Shown here one piece after another: positions 1,680-54,200 of a DNA stretch of 64,000 nt; the stretch's first letter is position 1, and each line of letters starts with the position of its first letter. The notes below the pieces were generated by a model. It did no database searches and was not told where the DNA came from. It was given only the letters and a program-made list of their open reading frames with translations. The stretch is taken from the NCBI RefSeq assembly GCF_000004075.3, contig NC_026658.2:24292075-24356074 (forward strand). The letters run 5' to 3'. This DNA comes from Cucumis sativus. Lineage: Eukaryota; Streptophyta; Magnoliopsida; Cucurbitales; Cucurbitaceae. A program made the translations under genes and the position numbers.

Positions 1680-3196
1680 CTTTTCCCATTTTCCGGTGAT
1701 CATTATTTTTCATTTCCGCTTTCCTTTGACTTCTTCATCATCTTCACCATCTTCATCATCTTCTTCCTCCTCCTCCTTTGCTGCTTCTTCACGGTATGCT
1801 TCTTCTTTTAATTCTATGCACTTTCTTACCTTCATCATTAATTTGCTTCCTTTCTTTCTATTACTGTGACTCCATTCCACCTTTTACTGCCTTTTGATTT
1901 CTCTTCATTTTTTTTTATGTTTCCCATTTGATATCTTTGATGCGCTTTATCATTTGTATCTCCTCTTCTGTTCTGTAAGAGCTGTGTGATTTCGCCTTTT
2001 TAATTCCTTTTCCTATTTTTCTTTCCTTAATTGCTCTCATTTAATTCCACTATGTATGTTGTTGTTGAATTTTGCCTGTTTATGTTCTCTCATTTAATTA
2101 GACTGTGAGTTGTTTCGTGCTTCTTTATTTTGCTTTCCTTTCTGGAATCTGGCGGCTGTAGGCGGGATGGAGGGCGGATGCGCTTAATTACTATCTCTGT
2201 TTTTCTCGTTTTTGGAACCAGAGGAGGTTTTTTCGATGTGCGCACTAGGTGTTGACGTTAATTGTTTTCCAGGTTTGATCGGCTCTACGTTTAAATGTTA
2301 AGTCTTTATAGGATTGAAACTTAAGGTTTACAAACTTTTTGGAAAGCGTCTTGCGTCGCGTCCTTTTTGGGTACCAGAAAGTATTTACTTCGTCGGTGAA
2401 ACACATTGGTGTAGCAGAAATTCTTAGACGATTCTATGTTGATCTATTTAGAAAATTAGGTTATCTCATGGATCGATTAGAGGTGGCTGCTATTAAGCTC
2501 AAAATGGATAATTTTTTTAAGAAATAACCTTATATCTTTTCTTTTTTTAAAAAAATATGTGTGTGAGGGTGGTGGGGGATCCGAACCTCAAACTTCTTGT
2601 TTAAGAGTATACACGTTTTGTAGATTTAGCTATGCTCTCTTAGGGATTAATCTAAAATCTTTGGTGTATGCCAAGTCGCGTACCACTTCATAGTTGTAGA
2701 TATAGGTATTAAAGAATATACCATATTTATAACTGAGACTTGATTAACTATGCTTGGATCAAACTTTTTTAGCCTAATACAATTTTTCAGGAGCATTTGA
2801 GGAAAGCTGAATTGTTGATCAAATACAAGGAATTTAATATTCTAGTTTAAAACATTCCGTGGAGTAATATGAAAATGGTTCAAAACGAAATGATAAAACA
2901 TTGACTTAGCAGTGGATAAAAAGCTGAAAATGGTTATCACTTTGATTCTTTGACCCTTGATTAAATGTGTCAAATGTGTCATGATAATTTCTAATGGTTC
3001 GTGAATCTGGTTCTTCTTATTCACTGATTTGTCATTGGCATGATAACATTTTGCTTCTGACTGTAGTTTCCTAAAGTTGCTGTCTAGTTAATTTTGCAAA
3101 ACAGGATTTAAAATTAACGATTTTGGGTGCTTTGTGCTTTCTATGGTTTCAGCTCAGCTACAGCTCTCTGTTGGCAGTATTTGTTAACCCTGTTCG
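1680..3196 (+). other. WEB1-like 5' leader with large intron
   Basis: A CT-rich leader ends at 1793 in a good donor (ACG|GTATGC). A matching acceptor (TGGTTTCAG) ends at 3151, 45 bp before the ATG. This suggests a 5'UTR intron of about 1.36 kb, common in plant genes of this class. It is an inference from splice motifs; no transcript data were available. The intron holds a SINE-like fragment at 2560-2642. Confidence 0.5.
2560..2642 (-). repeat. tRNA-derived SINE-like fragment
   Basis: Read on the minus strand this resembles a degenerate tRNA-type pol III promoter. An A-box-like TAGCTAAATCT is followed about 40 bp later by a B-box-like GAGGTTCGGATCCC. It lies in the putative WEB1-like leader intron. 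The boundaries are approximate. Confidence 0.35.
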
Positions 3197-6100
3197 ATGG
3201 ATGATGTGAAATTAGCTAATCATACATCTTCTTCACATTCCTCATTAATCTCTCAAGAGGATAGTCATTCTCTTGATGAAAATCCAAACCACCTAGTTAA
3301 CAATGGAATTGTTGGTCCCAGCCAAGTTCTCCCAAATTCTGTTGCTAATGGGAAGTTGGAAGGTAAAATTGAATGCTCTCCAAGTCCAATTGATGGAACT
3401 GTGATATCTGAGAGTCCACATCAAATATCTGAAAATTCTGTAATGTCAGCCATAGAAGGTGGTCCTAGCCCGAGAGATGCAAATATGAGACAAGATGAGG
3501 GTATTGCATCCAATAATTCAGGTTTGAGTTCAACAGTTCCAGATGATAGACTAGAGGAACAAAATCCAACTACCTTGATGGAAGACCCCAGAACTCAGTC
3601 AGTTGAAGATATGTCTGAGAAACGTTCTCAAGAACAATCTACTGTCCATAGTGGTTCTGCTAATGATGTCATTATGCCATCTGTTATTTCTTCGGTTGAG
3701 GTTCTGCCTGAGAAATGTCCTCAAGAACAATCTACTGTCCATAGTGATTCTTCTAATGATGTCACTCTGCCATCTGTTATTTCTTCAGTTGAGGATATGC
3801 CTGAGAAACTTCCTCGGGAACAATCCCCAATCCATAGTGAATTTGCTGCTATCAACGAGGTCACTCCATCTGCTGTCTCTTCAGTTGAGGATATGCCCGA
3901 GAAACTTTCTCAGGAACAATTTCCAGTCCATAATGACTCTGCTACAGTCAATGATGACAATACGCCATCTGTTCTATCTTCTGAGGCAGTGGTTATACAG
4001 AATGAAGGTGCTGTACAATTAGATAGGCTCACAGAGGGGGAGAGAGTGTCGTGTGGAAAATCGGAATCTGTTGATTCTCCCATAGATGGGAAACAAAGTG
4101 ATATAAACAGAGGCCTTATTGATACAACTGCACCATTTGAATCAGTTAAAGAAGCCGTTTCAAAGTTCGGTGGGATTGTTGACTGGAAAGCTCATCGAAT
4201 CCAGACAGTTGAGGTATAACTTGCTAGACTATTATTGTGATCCTTTCACAGTTTAAATGTTGTGGCACCCCTTACATGATGCATTGGGGTGGGTTAGGTT
4301 TTCCTAATATTGTTGGATAAAATAACTGTCTTTTGTTGCTAGCCTATCATGAAAAGGGTATTAATTTAGTTGTCACGGCTGTGTACCTTCAGAGCAAAAG
4401 ACACAAAAAGTATTTCTCATTGGTTATTAGCTTATTGTATGTAGTATCTGATGAAGCTGTGCTCTTAGCTGGTAATAACAGCATACTTCGAAAATGCATA
4501 TCTGTGGCATGTTACTTCAGGGTTCATTTGTGATTACAGGATGGTTGTAATTGGGGGACAAGTTTAAATGTGAAGTGAAGCGGAGTTTGTCTCATTATTT
4601 CACAATTATGTTTCCAGATTCTTGTTGAAATTCTAATTCTTCAAAAATATTCTAATAGATACTGTTGTATGTGTAACGCATTCACCTTGATTGTGCGTGA
4701 TTGGGTATAGCCCCACTACGATTGTGCATGATTGGGTATAACTCCACTGCTTGTTGAATTTAAGTAATTGAATTCATTCAACCCCCCGATAGATTCAAAT
4801 GATTTTTCTAGTATAGCTAATAGTTATATCTTTTAAATGTTGCAGAGACGTAAGCTTGTGGAGCAAGAACTTGAGAAATTACAAGAGGAGATTCCTGAAT
4901 ACAGGAGACAGTCGGAAACTGCTGAAGATGAGAAAAAGAAAGTTCTAAAAGAACTGGATAGCACTAAGCGATTGATTGAAGAACTAAAGCTTAATCTAGA
5001 GAGGGCACAAACAGAAGAGCGTCAGGCAAGGCAAGATTCTGAGCTAGCGAAACTCAGGGTTGAAGAGATGGAGCAAGGGATTGCTGAAGAGGCTAGTGTA
5101 GCAGCCAAGGCGCAGCTTGAGGTTGCTAAAGCCAGGCATGTAGCTGCAGTTTCAGAGCTTCAATCTGTCAAAGAGGAGTTGGAATTACTTTGTAAAGAGT
5201 TTGCTTCTTTAGTCATAGACAGGAATGCAGCAATAGCTAAAGCTGAAGATGCTGTTGCTGCATCCAAGGAAGTTGAGAAAGCAGTAGAAGATCTAACCAT
5301 TGAGCTTATGGCTAACAAGGAGTCGTTAGAGTCTGCACATGCTTCTCATTTGGAGGCAGAGGAGCAAAGAATAGGTGCAGCTATGGCCAGAGAGCAAGAT
5401 TCTCTTAACTGGGAGAAAGAGTTGAAGCAGGCCGAAGACGAGCTTCAGAGTCTTAATCTGAAAATTATGTCAGCAAAGGATCTGAAATCAAAACTCGACA
5501 CTGCCTCAAATTTGCTAATAGACTTAAAAGCTGAATTAGCAGCTTATATGGAATCGAAACTGGAAGAGGAGCCTGATAATCAGGATGGTAACACAAAAGG
5601 CGAGGGAGAGGATCCGGAAAAGAAAACACACACAGATATACAAGCAGCTGTTGCTTCAGCAAAACAGGAACTTGAGGAAGTAAAACTCAATATCGAGAAA
5701 GCAAGTTCGGAAATAAACATCCTGAAGGTGGCCGCAACATCATTGAAAACAGAGCTTGAAAGAGAGAAGTCTGCTCTAGCTACCTTGAAGCAAAGAGAAG
5801 GAATGGCATCTATAGCAGTTGCATCTCTTGAGGCTGAAGTGGAAAGAACTAGGTCAGAAATAGCCTTAGTTCAAATGAAGGAAAAAGAGGCCAGGGAAAT
5901 GATGGTGGAGTTTCCTAAACAATTACAGCAAGCTGCACAAGAAGCTGACCAGGCCAAATCAGCGGCTCAGGTCGCTCAAGAGGAGCTACGCAAAACAAAA
6001 GAGGAAGCAGAGCAAGCAAAAGCTGGAGCAAGTACCATGGAGAGTAGATTGCTTGCTGCTCAGAAAGAGATTGAAGCTGCAAAGGCTTCAGAAAGATTGG

Positions 6101-6735
6101 CCTTGGCAGCAATCAAGGCATTACAAGAGAGCGAATCAGCACGAGATACCAATAACGCAGACTCTCCAGCAGGAGTTACACTCTCACTCGAGGAATACTA
6201 TGAGCTTAGCAAGTGTGCCCATGAGGCAGAAGAACAAGCCAACGTCAGAGTGGCAGCTGCACTGTCTCAAATTGAGGTAGCCAAGGAATCCGAGTCAAAA
6301 AGTGTTGAAAAACTGGAAGAAGTAACCCAAGAGATGGCTACCAGAAAGGAAGCACTAAAAACAGCCATGGAGAGGGCTGAGAAAGCCAAGGAAGGAAAGT
6401 TGGGGGTGGAACAAGAGTTACGAAAATGGAGAGCTGAGCATGAACAACGAAGGAAGGCTGGTGACACTAGCGTTGGATTAATGAACCCGATTGCCAGTCC
6501 AAGGGCGAGTTTCGAGGGAAAGAACGAACCGTCTAATTTAGTCAGCGTATCTGATGCCACAGTTACTGATCCCTCAATTTCAACTAGCCCAAAGGGAAAT
6601 ATGCAAAGAAGTTTTACTACATTGGATTCGTTCTCGGAAGCAAAGGCACCAAAGAAAAAGAAGAGGTCGTTTTTTCCTCGAATTCTCATGTTTCTGGCAA
6701 GAAAAAAGACTCAATCAAACAAGACATCGCAATGA
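3197..6735 (+). CDS. WEB1: WEB1-type coiled-coil protein (chloroplast photorelocation)
   Basis: Two coding exons, 3197-4213 and 4846-6735, encode 968 aa; donor GAG|GTATAA, acceptor TTGCAG, phase 0. The N-terminal ~305 residues are Ser/Glu-rich and disordered, with four tandem ~31-residue repeats at about 135-262. From [20 protein letters not shown] (about 314-333) onward the protein is almost entirely coiled coil (DUF827/WEB family), rich in Ala, Glu and Lys. A basic C-terminus containing [11 protein letters not shown] ends it. WEB1 (weak chloroplast movement under blue light 1) pairs with PMI2 and sustains blue-light chloroplast movement by acting on chloroplast actin filaments in the cytosol. 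The family assignment is strong; choosing WEB1 over a close paralogue is inference. The 4214-4845 intron is ordinary. Confidence 0.93.
3599..3979 (+). repeat. Four in-frame tandem repeats in WEB1-like N-terminus
   Basis: Four units of 31-33 codons start at 3599, 3692, 3785 and 3881. Each opens with SVE[DV][ML][PS]EK and continues with [QR]EQ then a Ser/Asn-rich stretch ending PS[VA][ILV]S. Units 1 and 2 are the most alike at DNA level. The arrangement is a recent coding minisatellite in a disordered region. Confidence 0.85.
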
Positions 6736-8200: not shown

Positions 8201-11162
8201 TCACCCTCTTAGCCTGCTGCTAGATATGCTGAATGAACTGACTTTCATGGGTGTTGCAATCACCAACGGAGCTTCCGGCGAATCGGTCACCGCAAATTTT
8301 TCATGCATAAAACGACTATCAACAATGGAGTCATCTTTGAGAACAATCTTGTAACAGTAACAGCTCTTCAAACCTTCTTGATGGCGGTAGCAGTCGTGCG
8401 TCCCATTTTTCACTTGTTGGAAGTTCCATATCACACTGAACTTGCCCACAGTTGCAACCAAATGGCGCTCCTGCTTCCCGTCTTCGGTGACCTATAATGA
8501 TGGAAATGTAAAATTTGTACAAAAAGATTATTTGAAAACTGCTAAAGGATAACTGCGAGAAACTTAGAGACGTGTTGAGACAATAATAAGACACGATTTA
8601 GTGACTCAAATGCCTAAATTGTCTTCAGCTTCAGTAATACTCAATCTAACACTCTCAACACAAACTTTGCAGGTTTCAACTCCACCAGATTAGTTAACTA
8701 ACTCGAGGCAAATGGCTAATGTATCTATGGCTATTAAAAACATGAATAGTTGGCAATGAGTTTAAATGACTTAATCTTCTATCCTTCAACGGAAGATTTA
8801 TTGTCTCGAAGAACGTGGTATATTATGAATGACAACATTACAAGAACGAAGAAGAAAAAAATGGAGAATCTAGTGATCTGGCATAACAAACAAGGGAAGA
8901 TTATAGACAAGAAAATGAATGGTAGAAAACAAGAAGCAGAGGAAACAGGTGAAACGCAATTGTATTTGCAGCTGACAATAAAAAAAACAAAGGATAAGGT
9001 TATGGACAAGAAAATGAAACATACCAAAAAAACAAACAAAGAAAACAGGTGAAACATGATTGTAATTGCAGTTTATAGCGGATAAAAAAAAAGCTAATAA
9101 TCAAATAAGACGAAACATGTATACCCAAGCAATAACAATACAGTGGCTCATTTACTCGTACCAACTGCCCACACTATATCCTCACTCAAAAGTACATGTC
9201 AGCCGAACATTAAACTAAAATTTGAATAAGCACTTCTCAAAATTTAAACATCAAAATTTGCAATCTGTTCATGTCTTCATGCTAGATCAAGAAACGATCA
9301 ATCTACTAACCCTGCGGCCCATTGATGTGAAATTTCAATGGCACAACAAGCGTTTGACAGTTGGGCAAAACATCCTCTAATAAAAAGACAAGCGAAGCAT
9401 AAAACTATATAAAGTCCAGTCAATTAAGAGTGAGCTAGAACAACGATAACTTCAAGATTAATCCTGATAAATGGAGAAAGACAAGAAACAAACATACCCA
9501 TGAAAATTGAGCATTTCGAAACTTATTATCTACTCCAGCTAAATGAGAATCCAGAGGAGTCAGTTTCAGCAATCTTGGAGCTGAAATCCTATTCCCCATT
9601 CGACCAGAAAATCCAGTCTTCATCTTCCCATCCTTATCAGTAAAGAGAGTGCAAATAAGAATCAGATAAGAATCTGTTGTCCCCAAAATCCATCTACCGT
9701 CATAGGTAACATCTACATGTGTAATAGGTGAACCAAGGCCTGGAAAAGCGGTTTTTGCTTGTCTCATTGAATTGATAGAATACAACCTAATTTTTCCATC
9801 AAGCGACCCAACAACAATAGAGCCATCGCCAGTGGTTGCAAAGCACTGGAAATTGGTGCCTCTAGAAAACTGATGCCCTTGTGCCCAATTCAAGACAGGA
9901 GTGCTAGAAGTAGCAAGATTTTGAACCATTCCTTTCCTATCTCGCATATCCCATCTACAAAGCCTGTTGTCATCCAAACCCAAAAATGTTGAGCCTGAAG
10001 GATCCAACTGAGCCCCTTTAGAATCATTTGTAATATCCCTCATTGAAATATCAACTCCATCTTTTCCGAACTTCCATTCAGTAACAATTTTCCCTGTTTC
10101 AATGTCAAGCTGATGAAGTCCAGAAGTATGGGGCTTCCCCTCGTTCATTGGACTCATCAAAAGCATATTGGTCTCAGCCTTCATAAGAAGGGCCTTCTTC
10201 GGGGTTGAGTATGCCAAACACGAACCGCCTCCACGAGGACCCCGATTTCCATGATCAATATTCACATACATACCCTTTCCCTGAATTCCATGAGAGAAGT
10301 TCTTGACGACCTGAATTCCTGAATCGCCAACCAAGAAACTGTTGTCTAATGCACCTAGAGCTAAACTCTTAATCCCACCATCGGCAGCTTCCTCAAACTC
10401 CTCCATTAAATCGTTTGCCCTGACAGGCGTAGCTGAATTGGGACTTTTTGAGAAATCTTCCTCAGCATCTTCCCACATTGAATCATCCGCCACTTCAGGG
10501 TTTGCCCAACCAATGAAATCCTTCCCATAAACCTTCAATCTATTCTCCTCCGTATCCTCATATCCATAGGTATTCTCAAATAAACACCCCTTAAATTTTT
10601 CCACAAAAATCTTATAATCTTCATCGCTGAAAAATTTCAACGCCCAGACACCCTGCGCAACAAAATCCACACGCCGCTGATCTCCGAATGTTTTCAATTG
10701 CACTTCTGACGACACTCTCACTCTAATTTTCGATCCAACCCTCAAAAACCACCAAGAGTCATCTTGCCCCTCCTCCTCCTCATCATCATCATCATCTTCT
10801 TCCTCTTCATCACCATTGTCACCCTTATCAATTCTGCAAGACTTCAAAAAAGAGTAAGTAGTGAGTTTTTCGGAGGTAATCCATTTCGCTTTAGGAGTAT
10901 TGCCATTAATATGGAGGTAAAGCTTCACTGCGTTCTTCAAAGTTGGTTTCTGAGACGATCCGTACTTGAGCTTAAGAGCCCTGAGTTTCGCCTCCACTTC
11001 ATCCACTGAAGATGGCGTCTTCGGACGTCGCTCTGAAGATCTTTGATGCTCTTCTTCAACATCCTCGTATTTCTCCTCATCTTCTACATTAGTTACCCCG
11101 TTCTCATCTTCACGATCGGAATCTGACAGTTCCAGACCCTCGCGACTTTGAGATGCTCCCAT
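8201..11162 (-). CDS. CYPRO4/DEM-like, VID27 family protein
   Basis: Two exons, 11162-9498 and 8491-8201, encode 651 aa; donor TGG|GTATGT, acceptor TTATAG, phase 0. I start at MGASQS rather than at upstream in-frame codons because MGxxxS at the N-terminus is an N-myristoylation signal conserved in CYPRO4/DEM proteins. Order: acidic Ser-rich N-terminus; a PH-like VID27 N-terminal region; a run of about 20 Glu/Asp near residues 118-136; then a WD40-like VID27 C-terminal domain from about residue 270, where Gly-Asp-Gly and LDGKIRLY-type blade motifs are visible. The tomato homologue DEM (defective embryo and meristems) is needed for meristem organisation; yeast Vid27 is poorly understood. The single intron is about 1.0 kb (8492-9497) and holds no gene. 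Family call strong, biochemical role unknown. Confidence 0.92.
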
Positions 11163-11410
11163 TATCAAAGCCTTCAAGTTTGGATTACCGGAAATAGAGA
11201 TCGAATCAAATGGAAAATGAAGCAGAATCGAAAGGACAAATGGAGACGTAGAAATGAGGAGGCGCCAATTTCGAAATTTGAAAATCTGGAGCGTTTCTGT
11301 CTGTTCTGTAGTGACACTTTTTAGGGTTCCTCTTTCACAATGACGCCGATAACCGGTTGCCTTTCTCTTTGTAACTGATTCGACTCTTATCTCATCTTAC
11401 CAACTTTATG

Positions 11411-35973: not shown

Positions 35974-37732
35974 TTAAGGAACAACCTAAAAAGAAATCAG
36001 TGATCATCATTTTGGAGGAAGAGATGGTAGTTAAGTTGATATCACTTGAATTACCTGGTCATTGATCAAAGCATTTGTTTCTGATGCGTTGGCCCTTTTG
36101 GCATTGCAATCAATGCTTCCCTTTTCAACTTCTATAACTTCATCAACAAAGTTCTGATCCGAAACTTCTGAAGTGGCAATCATTTGTAGAGCTTATTGTT
36201 ATAACAGTTATTATCATCTAAAATAATTCAGTCTCATATCAGCGAAATTACGATTGCCTTACAATTTGCAATAAAAATCATAATTGGGATTTGGACAAAG
36301 CAGATTACAATAAAGAGTTCAGTTTGACTTGAACTGTATCAATTTGTTTTGACTCGGAACTTTCTGGTAGTAGATACCAGACACTGAGCAAACATCTTCC
36401 AATGTAGAATCACTAACTAGCAAACTTAAACTTGATAAACTAAATTACAATTACAACCAAGGGGAGCCACAAATCTGTCAATAAAATATGGATAATATAT
36501 AAGGTCTAAAGCCAAAAGATTTACCTTTATTATTGCTGATATATTGTTGGGACAAATCAGAGTCGGAAGCACGTATAGGTCCTGAATTATTAGCTGCTCC
36601 TAATGACAGCGAGTTTCTTCCTCTTGAACCGATAGCTTGACTTTTGCAAACGACATTTTTGTTTTTACGAGCAGCTCTAAAGTGATGTATCCAAGGATTA
36701 TGTGAGAGAGCTTGGTATTCATTCAAAAAATTTGATCGAGATTCAGTTGGTTCAAAATTAATGTTCTTCCAGCTGCCTCGTCGAAGAACCTTAAACTGAA
36801 TAAACAAAAGCAAGAAATGAGCAAATTGAGAATTCACAAGCCCATGATCAGAAAAAGAGTTAAAACTCGTCAAGGAAATGCAATTGGCACTGAACCTGGC
36901 CAAACTGTGAATGGCCGTGAGAGGCGGACTGGCTTTTGCTGAGCAATTTTGTGCGTGAAGAATTATCCTTGGTGGGGCAGGAGCCAACAGAATGCCCAGA
37001 ATCAAACATTTGGCTGACAAATGATGCTTCCATGGATTCAAGAAACAAATGGTGCTTCTCGTCGGTCCAATCAGAAGGTACAGAATCCGTCATATGAGTG
37101 CCCTAAAACCGAAACCGCATTATCAGCAATTCCCGCGGAAAGTACATGGTCTATCTTAATAAACAACACAAAAACAATACTATTAGTGATCTTAATGACA
37201 AATCATAATGTTGAACAATCAAAACTCGTGCTGAATTTCCAGAATTATTCTCCACAGTTTCAAACCCCTTACACAGCCCTAGTAATTCCATCGACAAAGG
37301 GCAAGATCGATCCAAACAGAGCCGCACAAAATAAAAAAACAAAAACCTCCGGTCACGAGAGGTAAGTGCGAAAGAAGAACTGTATTCTTCCACTTCCTCT
37401 TTCTTTCAATTGTTTAATTCGTATATATATAATATATATATTCACTTTTAACACGAAAATAAAGAGAAACAGTGCAGTAACGGTGACATAGCATGAAATT
37501 GCAGATACGAAACATCACATAAGCAAAACCTAATCGGAACAACACAACACATAAAAAAAAACAACGATAATTGAAAGTATGCGAAAGAAGTAAGTAGGGT
37601 AAGTGCCCGGCTAGAAGATTCAATCGGGCGGGAAAACTCGGTAGACTGGTCCTTGACGAATTCAGAAACAAGTGAGTCAGCACGAGTTTCTCTAGGGTTG
37701 AGACTGTCCAAATTTGGAGGCAACAATTCCAT
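35974..37732 (-). CDS. COR27/COR28-like cold-regulated protein
   Basis: Proposed exons: 37732-37607, 37102-36896, 36795-36525, 36167-36055, 35985-35974; 239 aa. Family marks are SDWTDEKHHLFLESMEASFV in exon 2, the SHNPWIHHF block in exon 3 and the EVSDQNFVDE block in exon 4. Exon 5 adds only three codons and the stop. COR27 and COR28 of Arabidopsis are nuclear cold- and clock-controlled regulators tied to COP1/HY5, freezing tolerance and flowering. Exons 2-5 have GT-AG junctions. Exon 1 does not: no GT donor gives the right phase, and the best fit is a GC donor (CGG|GCACTT). If exon 1 is non-coding, an in-frame ATG at 37093 would give 197 aa. A MULE is inserted 23 bp upstream of the exon-1 ATG, probably within the 5'UTR, so expression may be altered or lost. 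Confidence 0.85.
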
Positions 37733-37746
37733 GAATGGGGAAGAGG

Positions 37747-37755
37747 AAGAAGGAT
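37747..37755. repeat. MULE target site duplication, left
   Basis: AAGAAGGAT, identical to 44566-44574. Nine bp is the typical duplication length of Mutator-like elements. Confidence 0.95.
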
Positions 37756-37871
37756 GGGGAATTGACAAAAATAGGCCAAAAATGGGGTAGAAATAGAGTT
37801 TTAGGATTGATTGTAGAAAAGTTGAGATTTAGGATAAATTGGAGGTGAAATGACGAAAATACCCTCTTTTA
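37756..37871 (+). repeat. MULE terminal inverted repeat, left
   Basis: 116 bp, starting GGGGAATTGACAAAAATAGG. It pairs with 44450-44565 with mismatches only at TIR positions 4 (G/A) and 35 (G/T). The second mismatch changes the TATA-like TATAAAT of the right TIR to TAGAAAT (37788-37794). Confidence 0.95.
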
Positions 37872-40800
37872 TTTTCCTTCCTCTTTTCTTCTTTTTCCTT
37901 TTCTTCAACCCGAAGACAGAAGGCCGTTCAAAAGAAAAACGTAAACTCGCATTTGAACTCTCCCGCGTCTGCAGTTACCCTCTTCAACTCTCTCCCGCCT
38001 CCGGTGAACGTTTTTCTCTTCCGTCCATTTCTTCTCCACTTCCATCCATTTCTTCTTCACGACTCTCCGCTATATTTTCCGATTTCAACTTGTTCACCGA
38101 ACGTCTCCATTTCTTCTGCACGGGTCTCCATTTCGACTTTCATCTCCGGCGGACGCTTCTCCACTTCCATCCATTTCGATTTCAGGTTTGTTTTCACCGG
38201 ACCTCTCCATTTCTTATCCACTCCTCTACATTGGCAGTGCCGTATCCATCATCTTTGAAGTCAAGTGAGTAATAAAATCTCAGTTTTTTTTTTAGAGTTA
38301 GTCTGTTGTAGCTTATTTATTATTACAGTATTCCATCTTGTTTGTTTAAGTTGTCTGTTAAGATGTGAGTTTTTTGTTTTTGGCACATTTTGGAGAAGAA
38401 ATGCATGTCATATGCACACAGACATAGAGAACCGTGGGAGCCATTCTGTTTTTAGGAAGAAAAACCATTTCCTTTGCAATGTACTGTAATAATAGAAAAA
38501 CCATACCTTGGAGTTTAGAACTTGAATTCGAACATATATTTGGTATCCCATATAAACTCTGCAAAGTTACCAGTACAATAGATATGTGCTAAACATGCAT
38601 TCTAAATATTGTATTCTAAAGACATTATCATAAGCTGCATTGTTGAAAGACCATTTCCTTTGCCTTGAAGTTTTCCATCATCTCTCACCTATCAGCACCT
38701 ATCTCTCACCTTCCAAAATTTTGAGTAGAAGTCCCAATATAAGAGTGTTAACTTCCTAAACCGTTTAGAATGCATGTTTAGCTAGTCTACTAGGTGTTAA
38801 GGCTATAGGGTTAGCAATTGTATTAGACTTAGCAACTTTGCCTTGAAGTTTTCCATCATCTCTCACCTATCAGCACCTATCTCTCACCTTCCAAAATTTT
38901 GAGTAGAAGTCCCAATATAAGAGTGTAAACTTCCTAAACCGTTTAGAATGCATGTTTAGCTAGTCTACTAGGTGTTAAGGCTATAGGGTTAGCAATTGTA
39001 TTAGACTTAGCAACTTTGCCTTGAAGTTTTCCATCATCTCTCACCTATCAGCACCTATCTCTCACCTTCCAAAATTTTGAGTAGAAGTCCCAATATAAGA
39101 GTGTAAACTTCCTAAACGGTTTAGAATGCATGTTTAGCTAGTCTACTAGGTGTTAAGGCTATAGGGTTAGCAATTGTATTAGACTTAGCAACTTTGCCTT
39201 GAAGTTTTCCATCATCTCTCACCTATCAGCACCTATCTCTCACCTTCCAAAATTTTGAGTAGAAGTCCCAATATAAGAGTGTAAACTTCCTAAACGGTTT
39301 AGAATGCATGTTTAGCTAGTCTACTAGGTGTTAAGGCTATAGGGTTAGCAATTGTATTAGACTTAGCAACTTTGCCTTGAAGTTTTCCATCATCTCTCAC
39401 CTATCAGCACCTATCTCTCACCTTCCAAAATTTTGAGTAGAAGTCCCAATATAAGAGTGTTAACTTCCTAAACCGTTTAGAATGCATGTTTAGCTAGTCT
39501 TCTAGGTGTTAAGGCTATAGGGTTAGCAATTGTATTAGACTTAGCAACTTTGCCTTGAAGTTTTCCATCATCTCTCACCTATCAGCACCTATCTCTCACC
39601 TTCCAAAATTTTGAGTAGAAGTCCCAATATAAGAGTGTAAACTTCCTAAACGGTTTAGAATGCATGTTTAGCTAGTCTACTAGGTGTTAAGGCTATAGGG
39701 TTAGCAATTGTATTAGACTTAGCAACTTTGCCTTGAAGTTTTCCATCATCTCTCACCTATCAGCACCTATCTCTCACCTTCCAAAATTTTGAGTAGAAGT
39801 CCCAATATAAGAGTGTAAACTTCCTAAACGGTTTAGAATGCATGTTTAGCTAGTCTACTAGGTGTTAAGGCTATAGGGTTAGCAATTGTATTAGACTTAG
39901 CAACTTTGCCTTGAAGTTTTCCATCATCTCTCACCTATCAGCACCTATCTCTCACCTTCCAAAATTTTGAGTAGAAGTCCCAATATAAGAGTGTTAACTT
40001 CCTAAACCGTTTAGAATGCATGTTTAGCTAGTCTTCTAGGTGTTAAGGCTATAGGGTTAGCAATTGTATTAGACTTAGCAACTTTGCCTTGAAGTTTTCC
40101 ATCATCTCTCACCTATCAGCACCTATCTCTCACCTTCCAAAATTTTGAGTAGAAGTCCCAATATAAGAGTGTAAACTTCCTAAACGGTTTAGAATGCATG
40201 TTTAGCTAGTCTACTAGGTGTTAAGGCTATAGGGTTAGCAATTGTATTAGACTTAGCAACTTTGCCTTGAAGTTTTCCATCATCTCTCACCTATCAGCAC
40301 CTATCTCTCACCTTCCAAAATTTTGAGTAGAAGTCCCAATATAAGAGTGTTAACTTCCTAAACCGTTTAGAATGCATGTTTAGCTAGTCTTCTAGGTGTT
40401 AAGGCTATAGGGTTAGCAATTGTATTAGACTTAGCAACTTTGCCTTGAAGTTTTCCATCATCTCTCACCTATCAGCACCTATCTCTCACCTTCCAAAATT
40501 TTGAGTAGAAGTCCCAATATAAGAGTGTAAACTTCCTAAACGGTTTAGAATGCATGTTTAGCTAGTCTACTAGGTGTTAAGGCTATAGGGTTAGCAATTG
40601 TATTAGACTTAGCAACTTTGCCTTGAAGTTTTCCATCATCTCTCACCTATCAGCACCTATCTCTCACCTTCCAAAATTTTGAGTAGAAGTCCCAATATAA
40701 GAGTGTTAACTTCCTAAACCGTTTAGAATGCATGTTTAGCTAGTCTTCTAGGTGTTAAGGCTATAGGGTTAGCAATTGTATTAGACTTAGCAACTTTGCC

Positions 40801-41553
40801 TTGAAGTTTTCCATCATCTCTCACCTATCAGCACCTATCTCTCACCTTCCAAAATTTTGAGTAGAAGTCCCAATATAAGAGTGTAAACTTCCTAAACGGT
40901 TTAGAATGCATGTTTAGCTAGTCTACTAGGTGTTAAGGCTATAGGGTTAGCAATTGTATTAGACTTAGCAACTTTGCCTTGAAGTTTTCCATCATCTCTC
41001 ACCTATCAGCACCTATCTCTCACCTTCCAAAATTTTGAGTAGAAGTCCCAATATAAGAGTGTTAACTTCCTAAACCGTTTAGAATGCATGTTTAGCTAGT
41101 CTTCTAGGTGTTAAGGCTATAGGGTTAGCAATTGATATTAGACTTAGCAACTTTGCCTTGAAGTTTTCCATCATCTCTCACCTATCAGCACCTATCTCTC
41201 ACCTTCCAAAATTTTGAGTAGAAGTCCCAATATAAGAGTGTAAACTTCCTAAACGGTTTAGAATGCATGTTTAGCTAGTCTACTAGGTGTTAAGGCTATA
41301 GGGTTAGCAATTCTATTAGACTTAGCAACTTTGCCTTGAAGTTTTTCATCATCTCTCACCTATCAGCACCTATCTCTCACCTTCCAAAATTTTGAGTAGA
41401 AGTCCCAAGATGCTAGTGCATCCATGTTAAGTAAGTCTCTTATGCAATTATATTTAATTAGTTTTTTTTTTTTATGCAGGTCTCAGTATGGCTTCGACAT
41501 CAACTAACGGTCCCATGTACAAGATTGACCCTGCTCATCATTTTCAGTCTATA
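37850..41553 (+). pseudogene. Truncated left-hand gene of the MULE
   Basis: A good donor (CAA|GTGAGT after 38264) and acceptor (TTTTATGCAG ending 41479) define a 3.2-kb intron containing the satellite array. The next exon, 41480-41553, contains an ATG at 41488 and encodes MASTSTNGPMYKIDPAHHFQ plus two residues. It ends in a good donor (ATA|GTAAGT), after which no continuing exon exists because transposase sequence begins. A 138-codon frame from an ATG in the TIR (37850) also joins in phase through this intron, but it is low complexity and may be untranslated leader. The product is not recognised. Related MULEs often carry a second gene, for example a Ulp1-like protease, but nothing here identifies one. 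Confidence 0.45.
38659..41408. repeat. 178-bp satellite-like tandem array, 15 units plus partial
   Basis: Units begin (at TGCCTTGAAG) at 38661 and every 178 bp thereafter through 41153; a last partial unit begins at 41332 and breaks off near 41408. One 1-bp insertion near 41134 shifts the final period. Units are almost identical. Three diagnostic sites define subtype X (GTTAAC, AAACCG, CTTCTA) and subtype Y (GTAAAC, AAACGG, CTACTA). Units 1 and 2 are mixed types. From unit 3 the order is Y Y X Y Y X Y X Y X Y X Y, so the right half is a 356-bp dimeric higher-order repeat. Confidence 0.97.
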
Positions 41554-43627
41554 GTAAGTAGTTTAGCACATTTAGAAAACAGTACACGTACAATAAATTT
41601 ATGACCTCCTCTTTATCTAAATCTTTAACATGGAATTGGTAACAATCAATTGGGTTGACTTTCATTGTCAAAGCTCGTTCTTGTTTCTTTTGTAGAACTA
41701 ACTCTGCCCATTTAGTCAATGTAGACGTCACTTTAATGCCTTCTTCTCGACGCTCCCAAAACCAACGTTGTAGCAAAGCTCGAACATGTTCAAGGAATGA
41801 AGCAATAGGCAAATCTCTAGGTTCTTTCAGTATAGAATTCATGGACTCTGCTATATTTGTTGTCATCATATTATATCGTCTTCCTGGACAGTGAAAACGA
41901 GACCAACGTGTTATTCCAACATCGTTTAAATATTTTCCTGAATCATTAGGAAATGCAAGAATACTTCTCCACGCTTCTGAGAACGTTGATTCACGGTATG
42001 TTCTAGATGCATTGTAAAACAAAGTAGCTATAGTGTCATTCTTGTATTTATCATTCAAATTTTGAGTCAAGTGTTGGACACAAAGTCCATGGAATGCGGA
42101 GGGAAAAACCGATGCAATACACTTAGAAAAACATGTTTTTCGATCTGTCACGAAGCCTAGATTAGGCACCTCTCCTATTGCACCTTTCAATTTCTCTAAG
42201 AACCACTGTATTGAAGCATCTGTTTCTCTGTCCACCACTCCAAAGGCAAGAGGATAAATTTGATTGTTACCATCCAAGCAAACAGCAACTATCAACTGAC
42301 CCCGATATTTGTTCTTAAGGAATGTTCCATCCATGACTATAACCGGTCTAATGCAGTTTAAGAATCCTCGAACACATGGACCAACAGCCATAAAAAGATA
42401 TTTGAAGAAACGATTATCTTCAAGTTCCATGTGAAATATTGTACCTACATTTGCAAGTTTGAGAGCTTCACCATATCTAAGCAATAGATTATATGACTCT
42501 TCAGGACACCCGCGCACTCGTTCATACGCATTTTCTCTAGCGCGCCATGCTTTTTCATAACTCATATTTATGCCATAGTCTTGCCTCATGTCTTCTATGA
42601 TATCACGCGGTTTGTATAGACGACCGACTCCCTTGAACTTTGACTTTATTAATTCTCCAACAACCCAAGATTTTGCTTGCCTATGGTCACGATTCAAAAC
42701 GTCAAGAGAACACGAATGAACTTTGACATACTTTTTAATCTTAAATATATTTGAATCCTTCAATCTCATCGCTCGCAGTCTCCAACCACACTTGTTGTCA
42801 ATGCATCTAACAAAGAGAACCTCTTTTGTAGACTTTTTTACTACAAACTGAAAATTTTTTTTCATTGCCAAGACACTTAATCTCATTGACAAATCTTTTT
42901 TGGAAAAAAATATTTGTCCTACATCAAACTCCTCACTTGTAGAGCTTTCTTCGGACCAATCATTCATGTCTGTCTTCAACTTTTGGCTAGAAGAGCTGTA
43001 ACGAACTTTAGATTTTCCTTTGCAATCTTTTGTAGGACCATCTCTATGTTGTGGGATGTCAAATGATTCACTATTCATCTCTACTGGCTCCCATGTAAAA
43101 GTCTCATCTTTCGAATCATATGACTCATATGATTCCCATATAGCCGAAGTGGTCCCTATCACGTTATCACACAAGCCAACTTCAACTTCACGAACATGGA
43201 CTTCATTCTCATTTAATGTATCCATTACAATTGGAGGATGAGGGTTTAAGTTATGAGCTTGGTTGCTGCCAGATACTGAATTGTAATCTTTGCTTAACAC
43301 TTTTTTGCTTTGATTACTTTTAGGCTCAAATGAGACGTATAAAGGGACCTTTAATGGATTTTCACTAAGAAGATAAAACTTCAAATCACGGTCATTGCTT
43401 AACTCAAATGTAGGAGCTTCGTGTTCCACTTTTATCTCATATATGCATCTTATCATTACGTCGAACTTTGAAGGGTCAACTTCTGCAAGGTCATATAATT
43501 CTGCCTGTAAATCTTTATGTGTTATTTCTTTACTGACAACGATGCCTTTTAACATGCCTCCTTCGTATTTTCTTCGCCTCTCATCCCACATACCACCGTA
43601 ACGCACTAACATGGGAATATGTGACAT
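41549..43627 (-). CDS. MULE transposase, C-terminally truncated
   Basis: An uninterrupted 692-aa frame begins at ATG 43627, just after a good acceptor (TTTTTTGCAG), implying a 5'UTR intron. Order: N-terminal PB1-like region (about 1-105); acidic linker; MuDR DNA-binding region (about 230-310) with Cys/His residues (FVRCIDNKCGWRLRA, VKVHSCSL); and the MULE transposase core. Visible core residues are D433 (IVMDGTFLK), D495 (FVTDRK) and C516-x2-H519; E551 or a Glu in NIAES may be the third acidic residue. The usual C-terminal SWIM zinc finger (CxC...CxH) is absent. After FHVKDLDKEEVINL, where that domain normally starts, the frame runs through a donor-like GTACGT into 16 unrelated residues. Activity is doubtful, though the catalytic core has no stops. 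Confidence 0.93.
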   Translation of the reverse strand: MSHIPMLVRYGGMWDERRRKYEGGMLKGIVVSKEITHKDLQAELYDLAEVDPSKFDVMIRCIYEIKVEHEAPTFELSNDRDLKFYLLSENPLKVPLYVSFEPKSNQSKKVLSKDYNSVSGSNQAHNLNPHPPIVMDTLNENEVHVREVEVGLCDNVIGTTSAIWESYESYDSKDETFTWEPVEMNSESFDIPQHRDGPTKDCKGKSKVRYSSSSQKLKTDMNDWSEESSTSEEFDVGQIFFSKKDLSMRLSVLAMKKNFQFVVKKSTKEVLFVRCIDNKCGWRLRAMRLKDSNIFKIKKYVKVHSCSLDVLNRDHRQAKSWVVGELIKSKFKGVGRLYKPRDIIEDMRQDYGINMSYEKAWRARENAYERVRGCPEESYNLLLRYGEALKLANVGTIFHMELEDNRFFKYLFMAVGPCVRGFLNCIRPVIVMDGTFLKNKYRGQLIVAVCLDGNNQIYPLAFGVVDRETDASIQWFLEKLKGAIGEVPNLGFVTDRKTCFSKCIASVFPSAFHGLCVQHLTQNLNDKYKNDTIATLFYNASRTYRESTFSEAWRSILAFPNDSGKYLNDVGITRWSRFHCPGRRYNMMTTNIAESMNSILKEPRDLPIASFLEHVRALLQRWFWERREEGIKVTSTLTKWAELVLQKKQERALTMKVNPIDCYQFHVKDLDKEEVINLLYVYCFLNVLNYLL

Positions 43628-44449
43628 CCTTAAACCACCTTATACTTTTCAATTGCTGCAAAAAATGATTTGAAGTTAGCATTTGACATATCACATAAAC
43701 AAAGTTTATTAAAAAACAGTAGGTAAATACTAAATAAAACGTGCATAGTCACACCCTACATGTTTACGATCTTGACAGCTACAAAATGTTTAGGATATTG
43801 CGAGATACAAAAAACAATAGCTAAAAGTCACCCTAAATCAATTCATTTCAGATTAAACATTTCAATTTAAGAACCTGCAAGATGTCTGCGAGATGTTTGC
43901 GAGATGTCTACCAGATGTTTGCGAGATAAAATAATAATAATGATAAATTGCTAACATCATTTGAAACATCTATAAAGCAACCTTAAATCAACCCTAAATC
44001 AACTTGAAACAATAAAAAATAATATTTGATTTATACATTTAAGATGCAAAAATATATATACATATAACACAACACAATTCAGATTCGGATTTAAAAATTA
44101 AAACAAACCACAATGCGTGAGATGTTCGCCGGAGTAGATGATGAACGACACCGGAGTAAAGCGGAAAGTTGACAAACTTTTGAGAGAGGAGAAGAATCGC
44201 AAATGAGTTTTTCTTTTTTCTTTTTCCTTTACATAATCTATGAGAAGGAGGAGAAATGCTTCTTTTTTCTTTACGTAATCTATGAGACTGCAAGAGAAGG
44301 ATTCTTCTTTTTTTTTCCCTTTACGTAATCTATGAGGAGAGGAGAAGAAGGCTGCGTTCGCAATTCTGTTTTTTTTCTTCAGGTGAATGACATTGAAGAG
44401 AGAGAGAGAGGGGTTGGAAAAGAAGAGAAGAGCAAATGTGAATTAAAAT

Positions 44450-44565
44450 TAAAAGAGGGTATTTTCGTCATTTCACCTCCAATTTATCCTAAATCTCAAC
44501 TTTTCTACAATCAATCCTAAAACTCTATTTATACCCCATTTTTGGCCTATTTTTGTCAATTTCCC
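44450..44565 (-). repeat. MULE terminal inverted repeat, right
   Basis: 116 bp, inverted partner of 37756-37871 with 114 of 116 positions identical. Confidence 0.95.
44527..44533 (-). promoter_or_regulatory. TATA box within right TIR
   Basis: TATAAATAG on the minus strand points into the element towards the transposase start at 43627. It is the natural core promoter for that gene. The left TIR has TAGAAAT at the matching position. Confidence 0.5.
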
Positions 44566-44574
44566 AAGAAGGAT
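44566..44574. repeat. MULE target site duplication, right
   Basis: AAGAAGGAT, identical to 37747-37755. Confidence 0.95.
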
Positions 44575-44653
44575 TATCTCCAGATTTGCAATGGCGAGAG
44601 AGAGATGAAGGGAAGAAAGATGGAAGCGGGCCAGTGGGAGAGATATTGAAGAG

Positions 44654-44674
44654 GAGAGAGAGAGAGAGAGAGAG
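44654..44674. repeat. (GA)n tract
   Basis: Ten GA repeats in the presumed native 5' leader of the COR27-like gene, read as CT on its coding strand, as is common in plant leaders. Confidence 0.85.
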
Positions 44675-44720
44675 GCGGTGTTCTTGGGACGAAAGAACCT
44701 TCACAGTTGTCATGGCTTTA

Positions 44721-44813
44721 CACGTGGCAAGGGGCCTACGAGTGCCACGTCAACGAAGTGTTAATTGACGCTGAGGAATCGCGCAGATATTATATGGACC
44801 AACTGAAATATCT
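44721..44813 (-). promoter_or_regulatory. Displaced COR27-like promoter (G-box/ABRE plus evening-element-like sites)
   Basis: Read on the minus strand, the DNA just outside the right end of the MULE holds AGATATTT (44806-44813, an evening-element core), AATATCTGC (near 44782-44790), TTGACGTGGCAC (44743-44754) and GCCACGTG (44721-44728). A CT-rich leader down to the target duplication follows. Arabidopsis COR27 and COR28 are clock- and cold-regulated through evening elements and ACGT boxes. Without the 6.8-kb element these sites would lie about 175-270 bp upstream of the ATG at 37732. The link to COR27 is inference from position and motifs. Confidence 0.6.
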
Positions 44814-47262
44814 TCCACCCCCTTTTTATCACGACTACACTTCTTCTTTACCACCATCCCTCCCCCTTCAATGCCCCTATTTTCATTTTATGCCATATAC
44901 CAATTTACCATTTCTATCATTCTATCCCTTTATTTTTATTCTCACTTCAAATAATTTTGAAACCTTGATTCTAAATTTAAGTACAAAAGGTCGAATTTAA
45001 ATGGAAATTAATTTTTATATTTCATTTTCTTTCTTCGTTTTAGAAGAGACACACTTTTATAATCTCACTTTATAATAACAAAGAAAAAAAAAAGAATATT
45101 TAGTATAATAGATATTATACAATAATACGTTTATATATTCTATTTTGGTGGCTGCACTTTATTGAAAGGCAACAACACAGACTTTGGGGTTCTTTTTTCT
45201 TTCCCTAGAGACTCCAAATTTTTTAGGCCGGTAACTGTCGTATAAATATCTTTGTAGAATGCAATGAAGAAAAAGGAAACACATTAGTTTAAAGCTATGC
45301 AGTTGCTATTTAAAAAATGTGAGGAAAGAGTTTTATTTTATTTTCTTTGGTTTAATTATTATTGCACAACCATAAATTTTAGATTAATTATAAATTATTG
45401 TCTCGTTTTCTAAATTAATGAATTATTCAAAACTAATTAAAAGTTTTCACGTGTATTCATCTAAAATTGTAAACGTAAAATGGTGAATTTTTATGATGTT
45501 GTGTGCTTTTGTATCGAGGTTAGATTAAATTAATTATTTTGATCAAATTACATTATAAAATTTAGACTAAAGTTCAATTGAGACTATAAATATATTCAAT
45601 CTAGCCCAAATGCTAAATAAGGTACAAATTCAAGTAGTTGGACCTAAGAGGTAGGTCCATGATCAACCAAGCTCAATTTCATATGAAGCTCACGATATAA
45701 CTAATTATATAAACACGGGATTTTTTTGTTTTTTTTTTTTAATTTGAAGGTGGCAAAAATTTAGATTATAGAGAGCTTATGAGTATTCTTTGGACTATCA
45801 AAATACTCTCTAGCTCTTGAAGTTCAACTACATTCACTTCATTTTCATTACGTTACCAACCAAGAGGGAATCGAATAATTAAGCTATAGAGATTGAACCA
45901 CATATGCACCAACCTACATCAACATAAGCTCAATTCCATTGAAAACAAAAAGTGTACTCCAAAACCTCACGTGAAAAATTATATGTTGTCATGTGATAAA
46001 TAAGTGAGTCGTATTTATTGTCTAAAATATTTGTAGAAATGTAAATTTAATGTATTTTTAGGTAAGAAAATTGAATTTTTTATGGAGTCTTCCTTTATAA
46101 CAAATTAAAATCAAGTAAAAGTATGATGATATTTTTTTTATTATGGGAAAATATGTCGGTACTCCATATTTTCTCATGTGTTTGATTGAAAATTACAATT
46201 TGAATTTTAATTTGAATAATTTTTTTTAAAATACTTGATAGTATATTTATATACTCCTTAATATTACACTATATATGAATTAGATAAATTATTTTAAAGG
46301 ACAGTTTTCTAAAAAATATTTATAAATATAGTAAAATATCATCGTCTATTTGTGTTAAACTAAGATAGACTACTATATGTGTTGATCATTATATAAATGG
46401 AAACAAACAGTAGTCTATTGTAGATAGACTGTGATATTTTGCTCGTTGAATTTCAATTTCATTGGGCACCACCAATTTTGCAATGTGTCAACTTTGAGCG
46501 AGTTCACGATTCCATAACACACAACAATATAATTTTTTCAATAAATAACATATGTCGAGTGACTATCATTAGTAGAGGTTATTACTAGCATTTGCTATCA
46601 ATGATAACAAACAATAACATATTTTTAAAATTGAAAACTAGATGGTAGACACTATTAGTGGTATAAACTGATATAAGCTATCAACTAGTTATAAGTGATA
46701 TTTTTCAATTTGAGAAGTTCAAGAAGAAGCATCAGAATGATGAATCGGATATGCTATTTAATTCAAAATTGTATTAGTATATTTTAAGTTGAAAGCTATC
46801 ACTTGTAGCAGCTATAAATGATAGTTACTTATAACAACTACCAATGATAACAATAGATATAACATACCACTCATCCTTTTCAAATGGAAACAAATAAAGA
46901 TACCAAAAAAACTCAAATGTTAAAAGTAAAGCAAGAAGAAGAAAGTGAAACAATACATGTTATATTGTAGTTCGTTTTTTACGTTTTTTTATAGTGATCA
47001 TTTCATACAATTGGACATCTATAACTTGTCCTTTTCCAAATTCGACTAATTCATCTAACATCGTTTCATTCGAATCATAAATTTCATATTCGATTATGAT
47101 CAGAAAGTTTTAAAAAACAAATGAGGAGCATAGAAGGTTAGATTGATATCCAAGTCGGGTCACTATCACTAATAGCTTCTACCGGTTATAACCGAAAAAA
47201 AAACTTTTTATTTTAACAATTATATTTTCTTGTGATTATTTTTTATTTCTTATTTTTCCATT
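44814..47262. other. Intergenic upstream of COR27-like promoter
   Basis: AT-rich DNA with no supported coding frame. It has a GTCTATC-type repeat fragment at about 46300-46440 and more repeated CTATCA/GATAAC text to about 46870. Confidence 0.5.
46300..46440. repeat. Dispersed GTCTATC/GATAGAC repeat fragment
   Basis: ATAAATATAGTAAAATATCAT followed by GATAGACTACTATATG, then an inverted AGTCTATTGTAGATAGACT (46411-46429). It has the same motif grammar as 22085-22330. Confidence 0.35.
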
Positions 47263-51282: not shown

Positions 51283-54200
51283 TTAGCAAGGATAGCCAGG
51301 AGTACATTCAATATCTTTCCAGGATATCATCTTTCTACGATCCCTTCCTCTAAACGATCTGGCATGTAAACTACCACTAACAGGTTTGCACAATCCAATG
51401 TCAATTACGGAACTACTCTTTCTCCTTTCCGAGAAAAGAGATGCCTCGCTGATGCAGTAGTTAAACAGCATAGCAAGACAGCAAATCTGATGAGACAATA
51501 TATAGTTCTCTTGATCCAAAGGCAGCATCTTAAGTATATGGAGATTCACCTACAAATCCAAGGACACAAAACTATTAAGTGAAAATTACCAAGTCAACAA
51601 CCACTACCCGATATCTGAATAGGTTGTCAAATTCATAAAAATGCCAGTATGTCATCGTAGTGGTTAATTAAGTGCTTTTAAAATAAGAAGATGATGGAGT
51701 TCAGAAATGTGAGAAGATTAAAACAAACTCTCTTCCTTACCTCAGCTTCCATGGCTCGAAGTTCGTTATACCAATCAGAGTCGTCACACTCCTCACGGTT
51801 TTCTTCAGAATTCATCGTGTAGAGATTCAAAGTGAAGACAGGAGGCCTAAGAGGGTACTCCATGCTGATTTTAATCTGCCATAACATTAATGATGCCAAG
51901 ATTCAGAAAATCAAAATTGGATTATTCACGTCTCAAAGATTTCATGCCATCACTGGAAGATTCAGAAAATCAATAAAACATAACTTTTGTAAGGATAAAA
52001 AAAAGCGTTACCTTGGCTTGCAATTTAAGATTTTTGGTAGGTCGCTCAGTGTTCCTGGTAAGAATAAGGCAATATTCCTTGGACCCGTAATCTATCCATT
52101 TCTTTGTTGTTATGTTGTTGGAAGGAACAGATGCTACATCATCTGCTGCAAGCTCAGCTTGCACAGGATCATCCTGGTCACTGTCAACATCTATCATCAA
52201 CTCATAATCTTCATCATGTTTATTGAAACTTAGCATCCTAGAGTAATTAGTTTGAGGTGTAATGCTTTTAGAAATTAAAGTCAACTGTTTGGAATGCTCA
52301 AGATTGGGTGTTCTAACTTCAGGATTATTTAAGATAGGCGTAGATGAAACAAGAGCAGGGAGTTCTCCATCTTCCCTAGCACTGTCAATCTCTTCTCTTG
52401 AAATGCCAGATTTTCCAACCATGTCAACATCTACAGGATCCTGAACTTTCTCTTTCTCCATTGTAGTCAAAGATGATGCCTGCTTTGTAGAGTAACCTAC
52501 AAGCGACCAACCTTGCAAACAGCATGAAGGTTTATGTGAAACCCAAGGGACTTCATCACACGTCAGAACTGGCCATTTGAGTTTTTCAAGTGAATCAAGC
52601 TGTTCCCTGTTAGTCAATGCAAAAATCCCAATTTCTCAACACAAACTACAAACCACAAACCATACTTGGCTGAACTAGTGATCCTTCCACCAACCGAAAA
52701 AATTCCATTATGCAAAATGCAACAGAAGTAAAAGTAAACATGGCAAATATAGTTTTGAGAAAATACAGAGTTATTCACACAAGCATAGTGCATGAAATTG
52801 CAGTGATCAAAGCAACAAGACAAAGGATGGTCGATTTCATCTCTAAGCTACAAATCCTTCTTCTATCATTCTTCAAAGTCATTCATAATCTAAAACTTCG
52901 AATACAAATCAACGACTCACACAAGAGCCAGCTGAGCCTTTTTCCGAGAGCGTAATCTTTGCACTACTGTCTGTATTCGGTTCTGCTGCCGATACATTGA
53001 AAGGCCTGATACAATATCACCTCTAACAGGTTCACCACTGACAGATTCTTGTGCACTCACCAACGGTGGCAATTCTGGCAAAAAATCAATCCCAGCCAAA
53101 TGTTGTGCCCACTTATATGGTCGAGAGGTTCTCTTATCACTAAATGCAAGTGTTTCACCAACAACAAGCTTGGCTGACTGCATCATTTAAAACAAAATAG
53201 CATACAATCAAGGATTTCCCCTCTTTTTAGTTGAAAATGTAACTTAGAGTGGGGAAGGGGGCAGAATAATCAAAACATAAATGGAAAATTCTGAATTCAT
53301 ACCTGGTGAGGCAGCTCAAGGCCAGTATCATCAGGGAACAAGTTGCATAAGATGTTATTCTCAGGACCTTCATGAGATCCTTCAATCCCAACACAAATAA
53401 CGTTCAACTTTAACAAGCATTCAAACTTCAGAGAGAGCAATTTCATTGACTTGGGTTCACATGTTTCACTGTCATATATATGAAGGATGATCTTTAGGGG
53501 ATGAACTTGATATATCCCTGCATGCTCAATGTTCACCTTAGCTGGAATCTTCTTTGGCCGTTTTCTCCTCCTTTGGCCATCATCGTCTTCATCGGGTGCA
53601 TCATCCTCCAACTTATTGCTCTCAGCGTTGTTTGATGCACCTAGAATATTTGCAATGGCTGTATTATCATCTTTAAAAAAACATAAAGGAAGAGTTATCT
53701 GTGGACATTGTGCTCGACATATACTCAACAATCCAAAGAAAGTAGTGTCCTCCAAATTGACGTTTTCTAAAAAATAAATATGATCTGCAATTTTGATTCA
53801 TGTGATGATTTCAATGAATAATCAATTCAATTTGTATGTATATGCTGTACATTACATGACAAGATGATTCAAGAAGAAGTTACTTAGTAGCATATGCATC
53901 CAATTGAACTATCTAAAATTAAAAGAATTCTGATAATCCAAAAATTATCATATATGATATAAACATAACTATTGAACTAATGATTCGACAGAAAATAAAC
54001 ACCAGGTACCAGTTTCCTTATTCGCTTGATGGCGTGCAAAAGCTTGGGCATCTTTGATACTTCCTACTATCTCCAATTCTATATTTTCGCCAAAGGCTTC
54101 CTTTTGTGCCAAGAACTGCGAGTAGATTACATAAAGAGGAGGTGGAAGTAGCTCTGCTAGTTGGTGTTGCTTTAATTTTTTTGTCTGTAATATCCCCAAC

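Follow-up and report, generated by a model that had tools for sequence, protein, structure and literature searches.

A recent CsMULE insertion in the predicted 5' leader of the closest COR27/28 homologue of cucumber, and its probable effect on expression

In the maize allele hcf106::Mu1, a Mu transposon is inserted in the 5' leader. Promoters inside the terminal inverted repeats (TIRs) of MuDR are on record (PMC3310237). A cucumber Mutator-like element (MULE), CsMULE, has been described in intron 2 of CsMYB60 (GenBank MG558001 as given there). CsMYB60 is not knocked out by this insertion but its expression is dramatically lower, methylation of a promoter region is higher in the white-spined line that was compared, and the insertion is polymorphic between cucumber lines (PMC6305189). 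The Arabidopsis regulators COR27 and COR28 connect the clock with light and cold; their promoters contain evening elements that are reported to be important for cold induction, and the cor27 cor28 loss raises freezing tolerance (PMC10315267). The present report describes a CsMULE-family element in the predicted 5' leader of the closest COR27/28 homologue of cucumber. It is located in a window of 64,000 bp, C4:24,292,075–24,356,074 of the 226.6-Mb v3 assembly of Chinese Long 9930, and positions given without a C number refer to this window. The promoter of the gene appears to be displaced by 6.8 kb, and expression is probably reduced or lost.

The element spans 6,810 bp (37756–44565, with the transposase on the minus strand). 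It is flanked by identical 9-bp target site duplications (TSDs), AAGAAGGAT, at 37747–37755 on the gene side and at 44566–44574 on the promoter side. The distance to the predicted ATG at 37732 is 23 bp, as proposed in the first-pass annotation of this DNA, and comprises 14 native base pairs and the 9 bp of the TSD. Since a TSD arises at insertion and matches exactly on both flanks, positions 44575 and 37746 were once neighbours. The former adjacency of the far flank and the leader of the COR27-like gene, which the same annotation had postulated, thus follows from the TSD itself and does not depend on a relative.

The two TIRs are each about 115 bp long (37756–37870, plus strand, on the gene side; 44451–44565, minus strand, on the promoter side) and differ by two mismatches over the first 115 bp. 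The gene-side TIR has TAGAAATA where the promoter-side TIR has a TATAAATA box (44525–44537) that points towards the transposase. The transposase reading frame (41549–43639, minus strand; 696 aa between stops, first ATG at 43627) matches PF10551 (MULE transposase, E = 2.1e-20) and PF03108 (MuDR DNA-binding, E = 8.1e-10). MURA-type domains, long TIRs and a 9-bp TSD (8–11 bp in this class, usually 9 bp) identify the element as a MULE. The complete transposase with a SWIM zinc finger that characterizes autonomous MULEs is absent, and the window copy retains the DNA-binding and catalytic domains without the SWIM end. The interior also contains a tandem array of a 178-bp unit (38658–41408; 15.4 copies, 98% matches).

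Searches with the two element ends gave at least 40 and at least 41 genome matches, with only the best candidates scored. Thirty loci were taken per end (far end, promoter side; near end, gene side) and 24 whole elements with lengths of 5.8 to 11.3 kb were paired. A perfect 9-bp TSD is present in 23 of these 24 copies of the same genome, and thus the boundary of the window element is normal for the family. The TATA-box difference between the TIRs is likewise found in the family, with an exact TATAAATA in 24 of 30 far-end loci and TAGAAATA in 26 of 30 near-end loci. In two couples of paired elements, the immediate flanks are identical although the elements are located at different places of the assembly, so that the number of distinct sites is 22; these couples are either duplicated segments or assembly duplicates.

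One of the copies, C4:636794–643788 (6,995 bp, TSD AAGTTTCTT), is flanked by sequence that encodes the parts of an R2R3 MYB. Between this copy and the window copy there is one difference in 1,566 bp at one end and none in 544 bp at the other. By this near-identity to the CsMYB60 copy of line 9930, the window element is assigned to the published CsMULE family. The target AAGTTTCTTGTTT is common to two distinct insertions of the family, at C4:643788 (the CsMYB60 site) and at C1:19177481, which hints at a target preference.

No substitution relative to the window copy is present in 14 of the 29 other far-end loci (up to 1,566 bp) and in 18 of the 29 other near-end loci (up to 544 bp). The window copy itself has no private substitution over 2,969 + 544 bp (3,513 bp). 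For this count, a private column on the gene side, where the window copy has 545 bases and most copies have 544, was taken as a one-base insertion and set aside. Column 41591, a further candidate for a private substitution, lies left of the deletion junction described below and was dropped as non-homologous. If 7e-9 or 1.5e-8 substitutions per site are assumed for each year, zero private substitutions in ~3.5 kb correspond to 95% upper bounds for the insertion age of ~122,000 and ~57,000 years, respectively. The split of cucumber and melon is dated to about nine million years (PMC3199783). The element is a recent MULE insertion. The youth claimed in the first-pass annotation is borne out by the absence of private substitutions and by the near-identical copies in the genome, and the element can be identified more precisely as a member of the published CsMULE family that has an internal deletion and is near-identical to the copy in CsMYB60.

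In a longer relative on C5, DUF1985 and an Ulp1-type C48 peptidase are encoded on one strand, and the opposite strand encodes the SWIM end of the transposase. In the window copy, a single deletion of ~3.9 kb (junction 41596–41597) removed the SWIM end together with the DUF1985/Ulp1-like gene. A transposase frame of 713 aa that is open to the edge of the stretch occurs in 20 of the 30 far-end loci and is missing from the window copy and nine others. The family has many near-identical copies and the length of the 178-bp array could be misjudged, as would be expected if the insertion were an assembly artefact at a high-copy repeat. Such an artefact is extremely improbable. The TSDs on the two flanks match, the far flank has a single match in the genome, and the alignment crosses the internal deletion junction in none of the 29 other far-end loci. 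The 178-bp unit gave 306 genome matches among the candidates scored and, of the ~150 listed, many are located inside or near family copies. Tandem repeats within cucumber Mutator elements are already on record (PMC12395194).

The gene next to the element (35974–37732, minus strand) is predicted to encode 250 aa in coding exons at 37732–37607 (end uncertain), 37102–36896, 36795–36525, 36191–36055 and 35985–35974. In a BLASTP comparison with a provisional AtCOR27 sequence, the E-value of which refers to a set of four sequences, 74 of 234 aligned columns are identical. The blocks WTDEKH..SMEASFV, FKVL..PWIxH, EVSDQNFV and DQVVP are found in the same order as in this provisional sequence. In a genome search with this query the window gene ranks first (E = 6.1e-4), with C7 at 0.12 and C3 at 3.5. 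No Pfam model matches the protein. Judged by these comparisons, the gene is the closest COR27/28 homologue of the genome, and the COR27-like identity originally given to it holds. Further proteins with the WTDEKH/WTNEKH..EASFV block are encoded at C7:5308571 and C3:12755385; these are apparently more distant COR27-like genes.

Introns 2–4 of the COR27-like gene are of the GT-AG type. For intron 1 (37606–37103), a good GT donor in the appropriate phase is missing, which implies that it is a GC-AG intron (CGG/GCACTT) or that exon 1 is shorter. The matching intron of the C7 relative also appears to be in phase 0. Judged by title, none of the papers from a literature search on cucumber and COR27 deals with the COR27-like gene, and a literature search with the conserved COR27-like peptide gave no match. 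One paper on CsMULE was found, and a search on Mutator-like elements in cucumber structural variation and pan-genomes gave none. The main text of the pan-genome paper PMC8813957 contains no occurrence of cold, Mutator, MULE or COR27. The chromosome-4 gene named in PMC9265480 is CsCDL1 and not the COR27-like gene.

The flank beyond the far end of the element (44575–44850, minus strand) contains CACGTGGC at 44721–44728, GTGCCACGTCAA at 44742–44753, the evening-element-like site AAATATCT at 44806–44813 (plus strand) and a CT-rich leader. These are the promoter-like motifs that the first-pass annotation had pointed out. In the joined flanks, AGATATT is located at -262, AATATCT at -240, ACGTGGC at -199 and CACGTG at -175 relative to the ATG. 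Closer to the gene, there is a CT repeat at about -120, and the TSD occupies -23 to -15. ACGTGGC/GCCACGT is present three times in the 64 kb, and two of these occurrences lie in the far flank, 22 bp apart. The evening element is AAAATATCT, of which AAATATCT has eight of nine letters. As AAATATCT has 10 occurrences in the window, it says little on its own.

A comparable arrangement is found upstream of the C7 relative, in the order AAAATATCT, AGATATT, GACGTGG, CACGTGTAAA, CT repeat and predicted ATG (position 625 of the C7 stretch examined). In the far flank, the corresponding GACGTGG-N18-CACGTGTAAA module occupies 44717–44751 on the minus strand. In the whole 226.6 Mb, GACGTGG-N12-26-CACGTGTAAA is matched twice, once in the far flank and once upstream of the C7 COR27-like relative, both directed towards the gene; the pattern was written after both sites had been seen, so that both match by construction and the search adds only that there is no third match. 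The reversed-control pattern has no match in the genome. In a general alignment of the far flank with the C7 upstream region, the score was reached by 1 of 1,979 random windows and by 1 of 2,000 shuffles.

Several observations, besides the origin of the search pattern, weigh against the far flank as the promoter of this gene. The full evening element AAAATATCT is absent from the joined flank examined. The general promoter alignment is modest, with two other pieces of the far flank scoring 54–54.5 compared with 57.5. Furthermore, the upstream region of the C3 relative shows no resemblance, its score being reached by 952 of 985 random windows. Because the module matches twice in the genome, both times towards a COR27-like gene, the far flank nevertheless very probably represents the promoter of the COR27-like gene together with the greater part of its 5' leader. 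The ACGT module and the CT-rich stretch lie beyond the element, which places the insertion in the 5' leader, and therefore the promoter itself should be unbroken. The original proposal that the MULE parts the gene from a promoter now 6.8 kb away is thus very probably right about the far flank and has to be modified with respect to the insertion site, which lies in the leader and leaves the promoter whole.

In the joined flanks, the 300 nt upstream contain a single ATG, at -162, which is in frame and is not separated from the predicted start by a stop codon. If this ATG, which is now beyond the element, were the true start, the coding sequence would be interrupted. This is very unlikely. The frame crosses CT repeats, which are stop-free in any frame, and the stretch is low in complexity. 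Additionally, the similarly placed ATG of the C7 relative is out of frame with its predicted start.

Most likely, the cold- and dusk-driven expression of the COR27-like gene is reduced or mistimed. According to the proposed mechanism, a CsMULE copy would have inserted into the leader 14 bp upstream of the predicted start codon and would have left an unbroken promoter, consisting of the ACGT-core module, the evening-element-like site and the CT-rich leader, 6.8 kb from the coding region. The displaced promoter faces the transposase because transposase and COR27 share their reading direction. The native promoter would read into the far TIR, whose own TATAAATA box points the same way, and most of the transcripts would begin, terminate or undergo mis-splicing inside the element. 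Additionally, the TIR and the 178-bp array beside the gene are likely targets of methylation. With transcripts failing within the element and methylation likely next to the gene, cold- and dusk-driven expression would be reduced or lost. The gene would lose most of its timed induction, and a residual or ectopic transcript may be formed.

The unbroken promoter and the shared orientation of element and gene would also be compatible with a small effect, in which transcripts from the native promoter read through the element or splice it out and COR27 expression is near normal. This is quite improbable for an element that is 6.8 kb long and contains a TATA box of its own, a transposase frame, the 178-bp array and 16 ATGs between its far end and that frame. 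In CsMYB60, the sister insertion occupies an intron, an easier place, and is reported to lower expression strongly (PMC6305189).

Two points count against reduced or lost expression of the COR27-like gene. In the precedent of CsMYB60 the element is located in an intron, and it is present beside a further insertion in two black-spined lines (PMC6305189). Furthermore, the 219 nt ahead of the predicted start codon of the present allele are free of ATGs, so that an ectopic transcript could still be translated. The latter observation also favours a gene that is active from a new or alternative start, in an outward promoter close to the gene-side end of the element or in intron 1, and that has escaped clock and cold control. 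Intron 1 contains TATATATA stretches (37440–37429 on the gene strand), and in exon 2 an ATG directly precedes the conserved WTDEKH block. Outward promoters are known for maize Mu1; the literature search for them gave no match. An alternative start is possible but doubtful. TATA-like stretches of this kind are common in AT-rich DNA, and TATAAATA is present in the gene-side TIR of none of the 30 near-end loci examined.

The COR27 control module is located ~190–280 bp upstream of the TATAAATA box of the element, on the same strand. This arrangement would allow a two-way promoter swap, with the MULE transposase transcribed under cold and dusk control and COR27 either silent or expressed from a start in the element or in intron 1. 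Such a swap is unlikely; if true, it would give the family a cold- and clock-gated source of altered, possibly inhibitory, transposase. Reduced or lost expression of the COR27-like gene is the preferred reading.

At the 22 distinct family sites the GC step is larger than at random window positions (mean 0.077 vs 0.050, p = 0.007; 0.057 inside the flanks). Long open reading frames are not commoner beside family sites than beside controls (8/22 vs 20/44). The evidence for a preference of the family for gene starts is mixed, and no such preference is claimed. Neighbouring genes in the window, assigned by Pfam, encode a WEMBL protein (weak chloroplast movement, 3188–6735), a VID27-like WD40 protein (9435–11396) and a THOC5-like protein (53297–53797).

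Cucumber is cold-sensitive (PMC9265480), and in the standard reference line 9930 the promoter of the closest COR27/28 homologue seems to be displaced. Should the insertion prove polymorphic, as reported for its sister in CsMYB60 (PMC6305189), the function of COR27 could be tested in a crop by comparing natural lines with and without it, and studies of cold or clock in 9930 would have to consider the allele. The element family and the class of mechanism are already known. New are the specific recent natural allele at a cold-clock regulator and the shared promoter module.

The cucumber gene has the same order of blocks as Arabidopsis COR27/COR28, going by the provisional AtCOR27 sequence, and differs from these genes in having a transposon insertion, which is found at neither of them. 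The CsMULE in CsMYB60 is of the same family as the window element and shares with it the 9-bp TSD and a MuRA-like transposase. That insertion is in an intron and comes with data on expression, methylation and polymorphism, whereas the window element is in the 5' leader and is known from its sequence. Furthermore, the transposase of the window copy lacks its SWIM end, in contrast to the CsMULE in CsMYB60. Ulp1-bearing MULEs of melon have reportedly been described (van Leeuwen 2007, going by the title). Complete cucumber copies likewise contain a C48 peptidase (Ulp1) domain, whereas in the window copy the Ulp1-like gene was lost by deletion. Maize Mutator belongs to another subfamily, and complete cucumber copies are distinguished from it by their DUF1985/Ulp1-like gene. 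The window element resembles maize Mutator/MuDR as a TIR transposon with a 9-bp TSD that is inserted next to a start codon.

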